From: a virus
Length of the DNA stretch: 32,484 nt
Reading direction: 5' to 3' (one strand)
Virus record (IMG/VR): IMGVR_UViG_3300025896_000109
Coordinates: 1-32,484 of that record
The translations under genes and the position numbers were made by a program. Below, in pieces: positions 245 through 30,081 of this stretch. The notes beneath the pieces are model-generated. The model did no database searches and was not told where the DNA came from. It saw only the letters and a list, made by a program, of their open reading frames with translations. The first letter of the stretch is position 1; each line of letters begins with the position of its first letter.

Positions 245-589
245 ATGCTTGGTATTAAATGTCCTGTTGGTTATGTGTATGCTTTATACTATAAAAATAA
301 ACCATTTTATATAGGACAAACTAAAAAAACTCTTAAAGAAAGATTAAAGTATCATAAATACTTTATATTTAATACTAATAAAAATAGTGATTTATGTTCT
401 TTTGTTAGGTCTATATCTAACGAAGATAATTTTTATGAACTTATATCAATAAGGCCAATTAAAATTGTTTCATATAATGAACTAAAATACCAAGAAACAC
501 AAATCATAAAATACTGCATTGATAGAGGGTTAAAAATCTATAATTCCTGTGTTATTACCATTTCTTATAAATCAACTAAATTAAAATAA
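245..589 (+). CDS. GIY-YIG endonuclease, probably homing type
   Basis: A 114-residue protein with the GIY-YIG nuclease core. The first strand pair is GYVYAL at about residues 9-14 and FYIGQT at about 21-26; these are followed by ERLKYH with the catalytic-type Arg and by Glu-rich helices near residues 79-86 (NELKYQETQII). GIY-YIG proteins make single or double strand breaks, and in phages they usually act as free-standing homing endonucleases. No C-terminal DNA-binding repeat is visible, so target choice is unknown. It is one of only two rightward genes and lies just after a terminator, with no obvious promoter of its own in the 34-nt gap. It is probably a selfish insertion next to the replication gene. 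Confidence 0.8.
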   Translation: MLGIKCPVGYVYALYYKNKPFYIGQTKKTLKERLKYHKYFIFNTNKNSDLCSFVRSISNEDNFYELISIRPIKIVSYNELKYQETQIIKYCIDRGLKIYNSCVITISYKSTKLK

Positions 590-24175: not shown

Positions 24176-24291
24176 CTATTTTAGTAGCTTTCTATACTCT
24201 TCAAAACTATTTACTCTTGCTTCAGCAATCTTAAAGTAGTCTTCATCTAATTCCATACCTACAAATCTAAATCCTTCTAAACAAGCAGATA
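24176..24291 (-). repeat. Second copy of the methyltransferase 3' end
   Basis: About 110 nt here match 25190-25305 with roughly ten differences. Both encode ISACLEGFRFVGMELDEDY followed by FKIAEAR and FEEYRKLLK. The similarity ends abruptly near 24290, where this copy is joined to terminase-like sequence. Confidence 0.85.
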
Positions 24292-24493
24292 TTACAGTTG
24301 CTCTTAATGTAGGAAATGTTTTTCTTACAATAGATATTGTTTTATTTGGATTAGTTAATGACCATACAATTATTAATTGACATAGAGACCAGGTTTTAGA
24401 TGACCTTGAAGAACCTTGGTTAATAATAAATCTTTTATCACTTTGTAAAGCATTATGGTTTTTTTGATATACTATTGTTGCATCTAAATTCAT
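24176..24493 (-). pseudogene. Chimeric fossil: foreign TerL N-terminus joined to methyltransferase C-terminus
   Basis: A 105-residue ORF. Residues 1 to about 66 read as the N-terminus of a large terminase: FIINQGSSRSSKTWS holds a Walker A-like motif, and ISIVRKTFPTLRATV matches the next strand and helix. This differs from the intact TerL of this phage (YVLTGGRGSSKSFS) and so comes from another lineage. From ISACLEGF to the end it is the methyltransferase C-terminus, nearly identical to 25190-25305. The product lacks both the nuclease and the methyl-donor site. It is best read as a recombination scar from replacement of a packaging module. The frame is still open and could be expressed as a short protein. 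Confidence 0.8.
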
Positions 24494-25103: not shown

Positions 25104-25190
25104 TTAAAAGTTTTCATTTATATTATTCATATCAACAATAATAGCATCTAAATAGTTTTCTTTCCATTCTATATTATTTACTATATTCAT
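25104..25190 (-). CDS. Possible 28-residue ORF after the methyltransferase
   Basis: The ATG overlaps the methyltransferase stop (TAATG) and encodes MNIVNNIEWKENYLDAII with a short acidic end. Tiling with the previous gene is the only support. It may be a remnant of a larger gene. Confidence 0.3.
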   Translation of the reverse strand: MNIVNNIEWKENYLDAIIVDMNNINENF

Positions 25191-26962
25191 TACTTCTTTA
25201 ATAATTTTCTATACTCTTCAAAGTTATTTATCCTTGCTTCTGCAATCTTAAAGTAATCTTCATCTAATTCCATACCTACAAATCTAAATCCTTCTAAACA
25301 AGCAGATATACCAGTTGAACCTGAACCCATAAAAGGGTCTAAAATAATTCCTCCTGGTGGTGTTATCAATCTACAAAGATAAGTCATTAGATTGATTGGT
25401 TTTAAAGTTGGGTGTGTGTTCTTCATAGGTGTTGGTCTTTTCTTAAAAGCAACTGATCTTGTATCTTGTCCTTCATCTCTACCTTCTATAATCTTATCTT
25501 CAAAATTATCTAAGCCTAAGTTTCTCTCCTTTTTTGAAACTTTTGCTACATAAAAGAACCTACTTTGTTCTGTATTCTCTGTGGTATTGATTATGGTGTT
25601 CTCTATTATTGTCTCTCCATTCTCTAAGTCTTCTTCCAGAACATAGTTTACAATAGGCACCAATACCTCTTGATTTGTTTCTATAGAACTCACTAATGCA
25701 TTTTGATTGTTTACAATCTGAACATTCAATATATTCTCTTCCATCAATAGATGTGACTGTTTTTCTTCTATCATCAGCGTGAAGTGCCCAATGTTCATCT
25801 TTGTGTAAACATTCAAGATTGAGAATGTCATTATTGAGTGGGTTTTCATCTTTGTGATGGATATGGTGTTCAACAGGTATTTTACCATAGTGTTGTTCCC
25901 ATACAACTCTGGCTTCTGCAATATATTTTCTCTTGCCTGTCTCAATGCATCTGACACTTCTATACATTCTTCCATTTTGTATTCTTGTGTATTTAAGGAT
26001 TTTGTATTCCATATTATTATATTTTTTTCTTTATATATAAAAAAATCTTCTCTACCTCCATAGTTTTTTGCATTAAAAAAGAACCTACTTGCTCCACCTT
26101 TATCATTATATTCACCAGCTCCTGTATTAGTAAATCCCACTTCACTAAATAAACTACCTTCTTTTTTTGTTGATGGATTTATTCTTTTCTTACTTTGACT
26201 TATACCACTTTGTTCATCTAACATTTCAGCAGCAGTCTCGTCAAATAAAATGTTTGCTGGAAAACGACCACCTTGATTTGGTTCATTATGTATTCCACCA
26301 AATCCATTACCACCACCATATATTTTACTATCAACACCACCATCATTTCTATATAAATTATCTTCTGTTCCTATTCTACATCCATCAACATTTATTCCAC
26401 CTGTTCCCCATTTAATAACATTATCTACAATAGTTTTCTCACTTAAAGGTTTTCTTGCTAAACAGATTGGCTCATTTGCTGGTTTCAGCGCAGTTCCCCA
26501 CCCTTCATATTGTGAGTTGCCTTTTGTTATGTCTAATTTTTCTTTACCTTCTGGTCTTGTCCCACCTTCGTGTATAGCAGTTCCAATAAGTGGTCTATCT
26601 CCAACAATTTCTCTTTCATTACCATTCTTCTTATCAAATGATTTTCCTATGTTTAATGACTTCGGAAATCCTGAGGCATATATCCACATAATCTGGTCTC
26701 TAATCTCAAAACCAGCATCTTCCATATTTACAACCATTCTATGATACGTGCGGGTACCACCAAATGATAAGACATGACCACCTGGTTTAAGAACTCTAAA
26801 TGCTTCTTGCCAGAACTCAATAGAAGGAACTTCATAATCCCATTTTTTATTCATAAATGACAATCCATAAGGTGGGTCAGTTACAATTGAATCTATACTA
26901 TTTTCAGGTAATTTTTTTAAGGACAAGATGTTGTCTCCCTGCATTAGTTTAATTTGTTTCAT
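25190..26962 (-). CDS. DNA methyltransferase (DPPY type) interrupted by an HNH insertion
   Basis: 590 residues in one open frame. The catalytic motif TDPPYG is at 28-33 and the AdoMet motif DPFMGSGSTG near 542-551. That order, catalytic first, is the beta class of N4-cytosine/N6-adenine enzymes. A central target-recognition region (about 100-290) contains GGINVDGCRIG and GRFPANILFD. Residues about 291-466 are foreign: the coding strand there also encodes an HNH protein in another frame, and the segment is bounded by two copies of AAGTAGGTTCTTTT exactly 525 nt apart. Without it the enzyme would be 415 residues and would read SRFFYVAKVSKKERN, as in usual members. Whether the inserted form is active is unknown. 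The start lies behind repeated element B. Confidence 0.82.
   Translation of the reverse strand: MKQIKLMQGDNILSLKKLPENSIDSIVTDPPYGLSFMNKKWDYEVPSIEFWQEAFRVLKPGGHVLSFGGTRTYHRMVVNMEDAGFEIRDQIMWIYASGFPKSLNIGKSFDKKNGNEREIVGDRPLIGTAIHEGGTRPEGKEKLDITKGNSQYEGWGTALKPANEPICLARKPLSEKTIVDNVIKWGTGGINVDGCRIGTEDNLYRNDGGVDSKIYGGGNGFGGIHNEPNQGGRFPANILFDETAAEMLDEQSGISQSKKRINPSTKKEGSLFSEVGFTNTGAGEYNDKGGASRFFFNAKNYGGREDFFIYKEKNIIIWNTKSLNTQEYKMEECIEVSDALRQARENILQKPELYGNNTMVKYLLNTISITKMKTHSIMTFSILNVYTKMNIGHFTLMIEEKQSHLLMEENILNVQIVNNQNALVSSIETNQEVLVPIVNYVLEEDLENGETIIENTIINTTENTEQSRFFYVAKVSKKERNLGLDNFEDKIIEGRDEGQDTRSVAFKKRPTPMKNTHPTLKPINLMTYLCRLITPPGGIILDPFMGSGSTGISACLEGFRFVGMELDEDYFKIAEARINNFEEYRKLLKK
25552..26090 (-). 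mobile_element. HNH gene insertion flanked by 14-nt direct repeats
   Basis: The 14-mer AAAAGAACCTACTT occurs at 25552-25565 and 26077-26090. The interval between the copies is 525 nt, a multiple of three. The segment is nearly filled by an HNH gene whose stop codon lies inside the right-hand (3') repeat of the coding strand. Too little sequence remains outside the ORF for a classical group I intron, so an intron-less homing-endonuclease insertion with partial target duplication fits best. Confidence 0.72.
25560..26012 (-). CDS. HNH homing endonuclease with C-terminal zinc finger, nested in a methyltransferase gene
   Basis: 150 residues. The HNH core is EHHIHHKDENPLNNDILNLE (about residues 48-67) followed by CLHKDEHWALHAD. 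A C-terminal four-cysteine motif (ECSDCKQSK with YCKLCSGRR, about 95-127) resembles zinc modules that help such enzymes bind DNA. The N-terminal part (YRSVRCIETGKRKYIAEARV) looks like the usual strand-rich lead-in. It lies wholly inside the methyltransferase gene, same strand, different frame. It most likely spreads by cutting the uninterrupted methyltransferase gene. Confidence 0.82.
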   Translation of the reverse strand: MEYKILKYTRIQNGRMYRSVRCIETGKRKYIAEARVVWEQHYGKIPVEHHIHHKDENPLNNDILNLECLHKDEHWALHADDRRKTVTSIDGREYIECSDCKQSKCISEFYRNKSRGIGAYCKLCSGRRLREWRDNNREHHNQYHREYRTK

Positions 26963-27429: not shown

Positions 27430-27582
27430 CTAATCAAAGTTCCTCCATTCAATGCTTCTGGATGTTTTACAATATGCTCTTTGATATTCTCTTTTAATAG
27501 TATTATATATCTTTGGTTTAGTTCCAACACCTATATAAAATGGTTCATCATTCATTATATGTCTGTATAGATAGTATCTCAT
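27430..27582 (-). pseudogene. Truncated GIY-YIG nuclease remnant
   Basis: A 50-residue ORF, MRYYLYRHIMNDEPFYIGVG followed by a short segment with YQRAYCKTSRSIEW. It matches the N-terminal part of a well-known phage GIY-YIG form (YYLYRHI...FYIGIGT...RAY...W). It stops at WRNFD, before the Glu-bearing helix needed for metal binding, and no continuation is visible in the other frames of the 36 nt before the next gene. It begins 1 nt after the metallophosphoesterase stop. An inactive relic is most likely. Confidence 0.65.
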
Positions 27583-27583
27583 A

Positions 27584-28249
27584 TTATTTATCATTCATTT
27601 TTACAAGGTATGCTTCTTTACCATCTATTATTACACCACAAGATATAATTGGTTTTTTACCAGCAAATCCATATGCCATAGCATAACTATGTCTATCAAT
27701 GCCTGTACCAACTTGTATTCCAAATACATCATTATTTATATATTGAACATATCCTTCTGAATGTCTATGGCCAGAACAAACAGATTTACATTCTTGTCTT
27801 GCTTTTGCAACAGCACTACCTCCCTCACCATGAAAATACAAAACATTATCCAATTCATATTCCATTACAAAGTCCCAATTATCTACTTTTAGAACTTCTT
27901 GATAAGACTTCATCCATTTCTTACTTAATCCTGAACTAAAAACTTTTCTACTAACTATTCTATCATGATTTCCTATAATAACTATTGCTTCTGGAAAAGC
28001 CTTATACCATTTCTTTATTTTATCTATTGCTAAATCTAATTCATCTCCTGCTGATTTTCCATCTGGGTCTTGTTCATGATATGATGAATAATGGTTATCA
28101 ATTATATCACCAATCATTATAACTTTATTACATTTCCATTTCTTATATTGACTTACACAAAATTCTAAATAACCTTCTTTTTCAAATGGTAAGTGTAAAT
28201 CACCAATCACCAATACTCTACTTTCTTGTTTTTTTAATAAGTTAAACAT
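27584..28249 (-). CDS. Calcineurin-like metallophosphoesterase
   Basis: A 221-residue protein with the full metallophosphoesterase motif series: GDLH (16-19), GDIID (47-51), GNHD (93-96), FHGEGG with His140, and GHRH (160-163). These residues bind two metals and hydrolyse phosphoesters. In phages, relatives have been seen as DNA or RNA end-processing enzymes, nucleotidases or cyclic-nucleotide hydrolases; nothing here decides the substrate. It follows the sigma-like factor and a micro-membrane protein, in an early-to-middle block. Confidence 0.85.
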   Translation of the reverse strand: MFNLLKKQESRVLVIGDLHLPFEKEGYLEFCVSQYKKWKCNKVIMIGDIIDNHYSSYHEQDPDGKSAGDELDLAIDKIKKWYKAFPEAIVIIGNHDRIVSRKVFSSGLSKKWMKSYQEVLKVDNWDFVMEYELDNVLYFHGEGGSAVAKARQECKSVCSGHRHSEGYVQYINNDVFGIQVGTGIDRHSYAMAYGFAGKKPIISCGVIIDGKEAYLVKMNDK

Positions 28250-29229: not shown

Positions 29230-29636
29230 TACAATTTTAATTTTTTCTTTACCTTTAAAAGGTTACTTAACATAAGGTTTAGTTCATCTTCTATTTCCAT
29301 ATGTGTTAAATCTATATATCCAAATGTTTGTGTAAAGTAATGTGCTAACTTATATGCTCCTAACATATCAATGTATCCTCTGCTCATTTTAAGGCTATTT
29401 AAGAAGGTTAAACAATCTTTTGATAGTGTGAGTTGTTTTTTTATTTTTAGTTCAACTCTGGTCTTATTATCAGTTGGTTTATAATCACCTCTTAATACTT
29501 TTACTCCTTGACAAACTTTACATCTCTTTAACCAAAAATGAAAAGGCATTGTTTCCTTAGTCTTACCTTTATTTTTAGTTTTAGAAAAATATATTTCTTC
29601 TCTTTCTACACCACATTCTTTACATTTCAATAACAT
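29229..29636 (-). CDS. Zinc-ribbon protein with conserved helical C-terminus (paralogue 2 of 3)
   Basis: 135 residues. CKEC at 5-8 and CKVC near 39-42 form the metal site. The C-terminal half has LTLSKDCLTFLNSLKMSRGY and IDMLGAYKLAHYFTQTFGYI, which align with the helical domains of the genes at 1722 and 30526 although more diverged. It overlaps the HNH-AP2 gene by 17 nt and abuts the helical gene at 28867. Function unknown; a nucleic-acid-binding adaptor is a reasonable inference. Confidence 0.65.
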   Translation of the reverse strand: MLLKCKECGVEREEIYFSKTKNKGKTKETMPFHFWLKRCKVCQGVKVLRGDYKPTDNKTRVELKIKKQLTLSKDCLTFLNSLKMSRGYIDMLGAYKLAHYFTQTFGYIDLTHMEIEDELNLMLSNLLKVKKKLKL

Positions 29637-30081
29637 CTATATTATGATATATTTTCTTAGCATCTAAATATGCTTGTCTTGCTTCTTCTTCTGTATTAAA
29701 ATAACCAATGTTTATTAGTTTATAATTTAATCTAATTTGTGCCTTAAACTTATTTCTTTCCTTAGCAAAGGTATAACCTTTGGCTTTTGTATTAAAACAA
29801 TTTTGTTGTTTAGTAACTTCTCTTAAATTACATATTCTATTATCATCCTTTATACCATTGATATGATCTATACAATCAACTATTTTACCATATTTCATAT
29901 AGTAAGCAAACTGATGACCTTTTAATTGATAGTATTTTCCATTTATTTCAATGTTTATAAATATATAACCATCCATTTTACCTGTTATTTCTTTGTTATA
30001 GATGCCATATATCTTACCACTTACTTCATTATAAGTAAATCCTCTTTCAATTGCTAATTTAATTTTGTCTTCTCTGGTTAT
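29620..30081 (-). CDS. HNH endonuclease with AP2 domain; start codon apparently lost (ATA)
   Basis: From the first ATG (29976) the protein has 118 residues, with the HNH core IVDCIDHINGIKDDNRICNL and the AP2-like C-terminus FKAQIRLNYKLINIGYFNTE, then EEARQAYLDAKKIY. Homologous sequence continues upstream in frame without a stop: ITREDKIKLAIERGFTYNEV, then SGKIYGIYNKEITGK, which is the usual start of this family. It runs to an ATA at 30079-30081 directly after the stop of the upstream gene, where TAAATG would be expected. So either ATA is used, or the start has mutated and only the short form is made. The full length would be 153 residues. Confidence 0.75.
   Translation of the reverse strand: MTREDKIKLAIERGFTYNEVSGKIYGIYNKEITGKMDGYIFINIEINGKYYQLKGHQFAYYMKYGKIVDCIDHINGIKDDNRICNLREVTKQQNCFNTKAKGYTFAKERNKFKAQIRLNYKLINIGYFNTEEEARQAYLDAKKIYHNIDVIEM

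Follow-up and report, generated by a model that had tools for sequence, protein, structure and literature searches.

How can a phage DNA methylase gene hold an endonuclease gene in its middle while its own reading frame stays open? Mobile endonucleases normally spare the host gene by splicing out. In the window (the whole stretch of DNA analyzed here, 32,484 nucleotides of the IMG/VR virus record IMGVR_UViG_3300025896_000109), host sparing seems to be achieved by writing the endonuclease across the reading frame of the host gene. The reading favored here, to which I give a probability of about 0.8, is that the inserted segment is a site-specific HNH_3 homing endonuclease gene in the methylase gene, kept as a tolerated and unspliced loop.

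An out-of-frame HNH gene within a methylase gene

The methylase ORF of the window is 590 amino acids in length with the insertion and 415 without it. The catalytic motif and the SAM-binding motif are intact on either side of the insertion, which occupies a part of the methylase that varies in length.

25190..26962, minus strand: host N6/N4 DNA methyltransferase ORF (PF01555, E=4.6e-29)
26867..26878, minus strand: methylase catalytic motif DPPY, intact, ahead of the insertion
25310..25339, minus strand: methylase DPFMGSGSTG motif (SAM binding), intact, past the insertion

A PF01555 match was also found in related interrupted methylase genes. The nested gene has the following parts.

26013..26066, minus strand: AT-rich leader directly upstream of the HNH start, almost the same in another IMG/VR contig (L091)
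25560..26012, minus strand: nested out-of-frame HNH_3 gene, 150 amino acids, ATG start (PF13392, E=5.3e-14)
25779..25865, minus strand: HNH catalytic stretch, whose His, Asn, and His positions do not vary across 13 aligned nested HNHs
25641..25724, minus strand: four-cysteine zinc-finger-like region (C97, C100, C121, C124), invariant in the 13 nested HNHs

The PF13392 score of the HNH protein is 52 bits against a curated cut-off of 24.8, which places it in HNH_3. The host frame is the HNH frame +1 (the offset of 950 is 2 modulo 3). The methylase frame and the HNH frame differ and, as the original prediction stated, are both open over the insertion. The TAG stop codon of the HNH gene shares nucleotides with host Ser-Arg codons (AG TAG G). 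The leader, which reads EDFFIYKEKNII in the host frame, is a possible internal expression signal; no clear Shine-Dalgarno sequence was found near the HNH start. The fold of the HNH protein is predicted with confidence (mean pLDDT 88). A Foldseek search with this model gave only a weak match to I-HmuI (E=0.14), which is also the best solved-structure match by sequence, again a weak one (E=0.02). I-HmuI is an HNH homing endonuclease residing in a splicing group I intron, whereas no intron was found in the window methylase gene.

By eye, three other ORFs of the window resemble endonuclease genes: 245-589 (plus strand) and 27430-27594 (minus strand) are GIY-YIG-like, and 29620-29976 (minus strand) is HNH-like.

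Flanking repeats and the restored junction

The insertion is flanked by two copies of a short repeat, each encoding the SRFF residues of the host.

26077..26090, minus strand: upstream repeat copy, host SRFF of GGASRFFFNAK
25552..25565, minus strand: downstream repeat copy, host SRFF of SRFFYVAK, holding the HNH stop codon
25566..26090, minus strand: the 525-nt insertion, regarded as the HNH region together with a single repeat copy

It was confirmed that AAAAGAACCTACTT (14 nt) occurs exactly twice in the window, at the two ends and 525 nt apart, as had been claimed from the sequence. The match can be extended to 25 nt at 84% identity. Deletion of the 525 nt gives the predicted 415-residue enzyme with the junction GGASRFFYVAKVSKKERN, and the same residues are found in a natural uninterrupted relative (L011). 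The 525-nt insertion is missing from relatives with GGASRFFYxAKVSK. Such uninterrupted (empty-site) relatives, which had been proposed as a check, are common. In both repeat copies, SRFF is written with locally rare codons, namely AGG (5.8% of Arg codons) and TTC (9.8% of Phe codons), and the chance that the second SRFF copy repeats the same coding is ~0.002. Thus, one repeat copy probably arose from the other.

The insertion site is hereafter called site A (GGASRFF / RF[FL]YxAK) and is shared by the window, L091, L153, and L154. In nucleotides, the latter three do not have the exact 14-nt repeat; they share only a similar protein motif. A doubled SRFF-like motif also occurs in HNH-less methylases (L172 at site A, and mycobacteriophages). 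Thus, a repeat at the protein level does not by itself prove duplication upon insertion.

May the repeats serve as a switch, in which recombination between the 14-nt copies removes the HNH gene and restores the 415-residue enzyme? The copies are exact, and they are placed so that loss of one unit gives a natural sequence. However, the three other site A insertions lack the exact repeat, and no revertant of the window phage was found, so that a switch of this kind seems highly improbable. The original prediction had offered an insertion loop or a locus that reverts by recombination; the ~175-residue loop is the most likely outcome, and the reversion was not borne out. Rather than an excision device, the flanking repeat is most plausibly a footprint left on entry at the duplicated SRFF motif.

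The methylase ORF of L086 and L087 (4001-5779) has the SRFFYQAKVSKAERN motif twice with no intervening HNH gene, suggesting an internal duplication in the methylase region.

Intron and intein searches

Searches of the window region and of five related loci with Rfam detected no intron or other known RNA family. Only ~75 nt of the insert lie outside the HNH ORF, which is too short for a known intron core. A group I intron was thus rejected, in agreement with the original claim that the gene entered a coding sequence with no intron core. An intein was also rejected. Neither the N-terminal nor the C-terminal splicing domain was found in the window methylase, and no intein model matched the methylases of the window, L091, L153, L154, and L015. 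As a positive control, the same searches detected intein domains in the terminase (TerL) loci L006, L007, and L107. Two findings had been named in advance as contradicting the prediction, a group I intron model fitting the segment and homologues carrying the 175-residue region without an HNH gene; neither was encountered.

It might still be argued that an unrecognised group I intron or intein is spliced out of the RNA or the protein and restores the methylase, since removal of exactly one repeat unit yields a natural methylase sequence, and since related HNHs also lie out of frame within TerL inteins. Against this stand the small space outside the HNH ORF, the lack of matches in the Rfam and intein searches just described, and the fact that an intron does not need an open host frame. 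I therefore regard such hidden splicing as barely credible.

The TerL inteins, as in Tetrasphaera phage TJE1 and Acinetobacter phage Highwayman, resemble the window locus in that an HNH_3 gene sits within an open host frame, in the +1 phase. TerL loci including L006, L007, and L107 have related HNH_3 genes out of frame in this same phase. However, their hosts carry intein splicing domains, while the window methylase has none. Pfam confirmed the intein domains in the three tested TerL loci, and the idea that the TerL cases belong to the same non-spliced kind was dropped.

In L099 (1878-4637), the methylase gene has a nested HNH gene and, judged by eye, what may be a separate intein close to its N-terminal half; a search with NCBIfam gave no intein model for L099.

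Other alleles at site A and proposed homing

L010 is 99.9% identical to the window across 5,355 nt and is a second record of the same phage. Since L010 shares the nested structure, the latter cannot be explained as an assembly error of a single contig. L091 has an HNH gene at the same place as the window, with 81% amino acid identity and 88% nucleotide identity, while its two methylase halves share only 60% and 57% identity with those of the window. The methylase frame of L091 is also open, forming a 654-residue ORF. L153 and L154 have more distant insertions; for this pair, the HNH identity is 70% and the identities of the methylase halves are 42% and 59%. Thus, in both pairs the element is more alike than the host genes. 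A search of phages with the joined empty site of L091 gave no close match.

The distribution of the insert and the differing divergence of element and host are consistent with homing. Translation of the HNH protein would begin at an internal start of its own, out of frame with the methylase, and the protein would cut insert-free methylase genes at the conserved GGASRFFYxAK motif. Repair templated on the invaded gene would then copy the insert in. Host splicing would not take place, and the methylase frame would read through the insert as a loop of ~175 residues. Because that frame traverses the insert unspliced, both halves of the methylase remain encoded after invasion, and the methylase may be active with the loop. 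The matched empty and invaded alleles make dual-frame selection and homing without splicing directly testable.

A small ORF of the window (24176-24493, minus strand) begins as a terminase N-terminus and ends as the methylase C-terminal tail, and 121 nt of it are 90.9% identical to 25197-25317. It looks like a recombination product, and L010 has the same ORF.

The host frame is kept open

Is the open host frame a matter of chance? In a recoding test, the HNH protein was fixed and codons were drawn from the usage of the window phage. The host frame was expected to have 8.7 stop codons, and none of 20,000 draws was open. When the codon usage of each host gene was taken instead, no open frame arose in 5,000 draws for either the window or L091. 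For other methylase insertions, 0 to 18% of such draws were open, the odds being lower in AT-rich hosts. Free-standing relatives of the HNH have 4.2 stops per 100 codons. The open host frame in the window is far beyond chance.

I extended the analysis to other loci fetched with HNH queries. A count of open frames among loci already picked as open would be circular and was replaced; the HNHs were selected solely by their position between methylase halves, regardless of openness. There were 23 such HNHs (16 distinct ones without repeat records). In all 23, the +1 frame has no stop codon, and the other frame has 3-27. Recoding yields ~2-8 stops in the +1 frame and ~3-28 in the +2 frame. Thus, the +1 frame is the easier frame to clear.

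These results bear on whether the HNH gene has simply inactivated the methylase, with the open host frame due to chance or to a recent event. Phage methylases are often dispensable, and the repeat in the window has a recent look. Nevertheless, no recoding stayed open in 20,000, two copies 12% apart in nucleotides (the window and L091) are both open, and every HNH between methylase halves is open in one phase. I consider inactivation very unlikely. Selection keeps the host frame free of stop codons.

The two HNH genes of the window and L091 have 56 nucleotide differences, distributed nearly evenly over codon positions 1, 2, and 3 (20, 13, and 23). At 70-85% amino acid identity, the third position accounts for 45% of the differences among methylase-nested HNHs versus 61% among free-standing ones. 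The contrast has P=4e-6 for three near-independent pairs and P=0.003 for the window/L091 pair alone, values that are indicative, as sites were treated as independent, non-independent control pairs were pooled, and independent pairs are few. Only 6% of the changes synonymous for the HNH create a host stop codon. Thus, stop avoidance alone seems insufficient for the depressed third-position change. Selection probably also limits the amino acids of the host frame; alternatively, part of the depression could come from relaxed selection on the HNH.

Has the 175-residue host-frame peptide then gained a role of its own, such as DNA target recognition, and become more than tolerated? The insert of the window and that of L091 are 77% identical in the host frame, close to the 81% of the HNH; this, together with third-position change depressed beyond the apparent need of stop avoidance and the location in a length-variable part of the methylase, speaks for such a role. 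However, HNH constraint itself may explain part of this, and the insert is missing from most relatives. In the predicted structure of the 590-residue methylase, the core is confident and the insert is at very low confidence. The latter also counts against a role, but says little because only one other aligned sequence has the insert. Taken together, a gained function is unlikely, and the tolerated loop remains the preferred reading.

Relation to the ShiLan domain and other insertion sites

The architecture, absent from the original prediction, has been published recently under the name ShiLan domain: in methylases of mycobacteriophages, an HNH lies out of frame and the host frame is open, with neither an intron nor an intein (PMC11855218, Arsenault, Gosselin and Gogarten 2025). 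The start of the ShiLan insert resembles the downstream flank (PMC11855218), and there is strong evidence that the domain moved between divergent methylases (PMC9957025, Gosselin et al.). The window locus is alike in each respect: the nested HNH is in a different frame, the methylase frame is open, intron and intein are undetected, the flank downstream of the insert is similar to the start of the insert, and the element is patchily distributed and less diverged than its host gene. The phase (host frame = HNH frame +1) is also the same in Mantra (L259), a ShiLan-type phage of PMC11855218. In contrast, the sites differ, GGASRFF / SRFFYxAK in the window versus the ARKPL motif of the ShiLan type. 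The HNH has an ATG start and 150 residues in the window, and a GTG start and 195 residues in the ShiLan type, and the lineages differ. The window phage is AT-rich, while the ShiLan type is from mycobacteriophages. In Mantra, two EP[VI]VVARKP copies enclose the HNH at the ARKPL site.

Thus, the window locus is of the ShiLan kind and not a new category; it matches in all tested features of the kind, and the site and the lineage are new. It is not the ShiLan domain proper, which is defined by the ARKPL site and the ShiLan HNH lineage. With the window, a kind described from actinobacteriophages is now seen in unrelated phages as well, at a new insertion site and with a new lineage of HNH. The present analysis adds a wider sampling and statistical evidence of selection for an open host frame.

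The 23 HNHs between methylase halves occupy site A and two further insertion sites, site B between AKxSKxER and HPTVKP and site C ahead of the ARKPL motif. On a tree of 78 HNHs, one change is needed for site A (support 0), one for site B (67, weak), and two for site C. The Mantra HNH groups with L172a and L004 at site C (97), not with the window. For sites A and B, the clustering on the tree is stronger than in every shuffle; for site C, a single shuffle was not exceeded. Thus, the HNH lineage largely follows the insertion site, with the deep nodes being poorly resolved.

An out-of-frame HNH in an open host frame may be a general strategy with several origins in HNH_3 elements, found at three or more phage methylase sites (at least three, with largely site-specific lineages) and in TerL inteins. 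The phase would be nearly constant because this is the frame most readily cleared by synonymous changes, and the host-frame peptide would itself be under selection. I hold the odds of this broader proposal to be about even.

Two loci each have two out-of-frame HNH genes at different sites in one methylase ORF, L172 (2900-3232 and 3908-4330) and L191 (3434-3667 and 3932-4336). In the methylase of mycobacteriophage SG4 (L261), alternative frame 1 over residues 125-336 contains a nested HNH-like ORF in the opposite phase.
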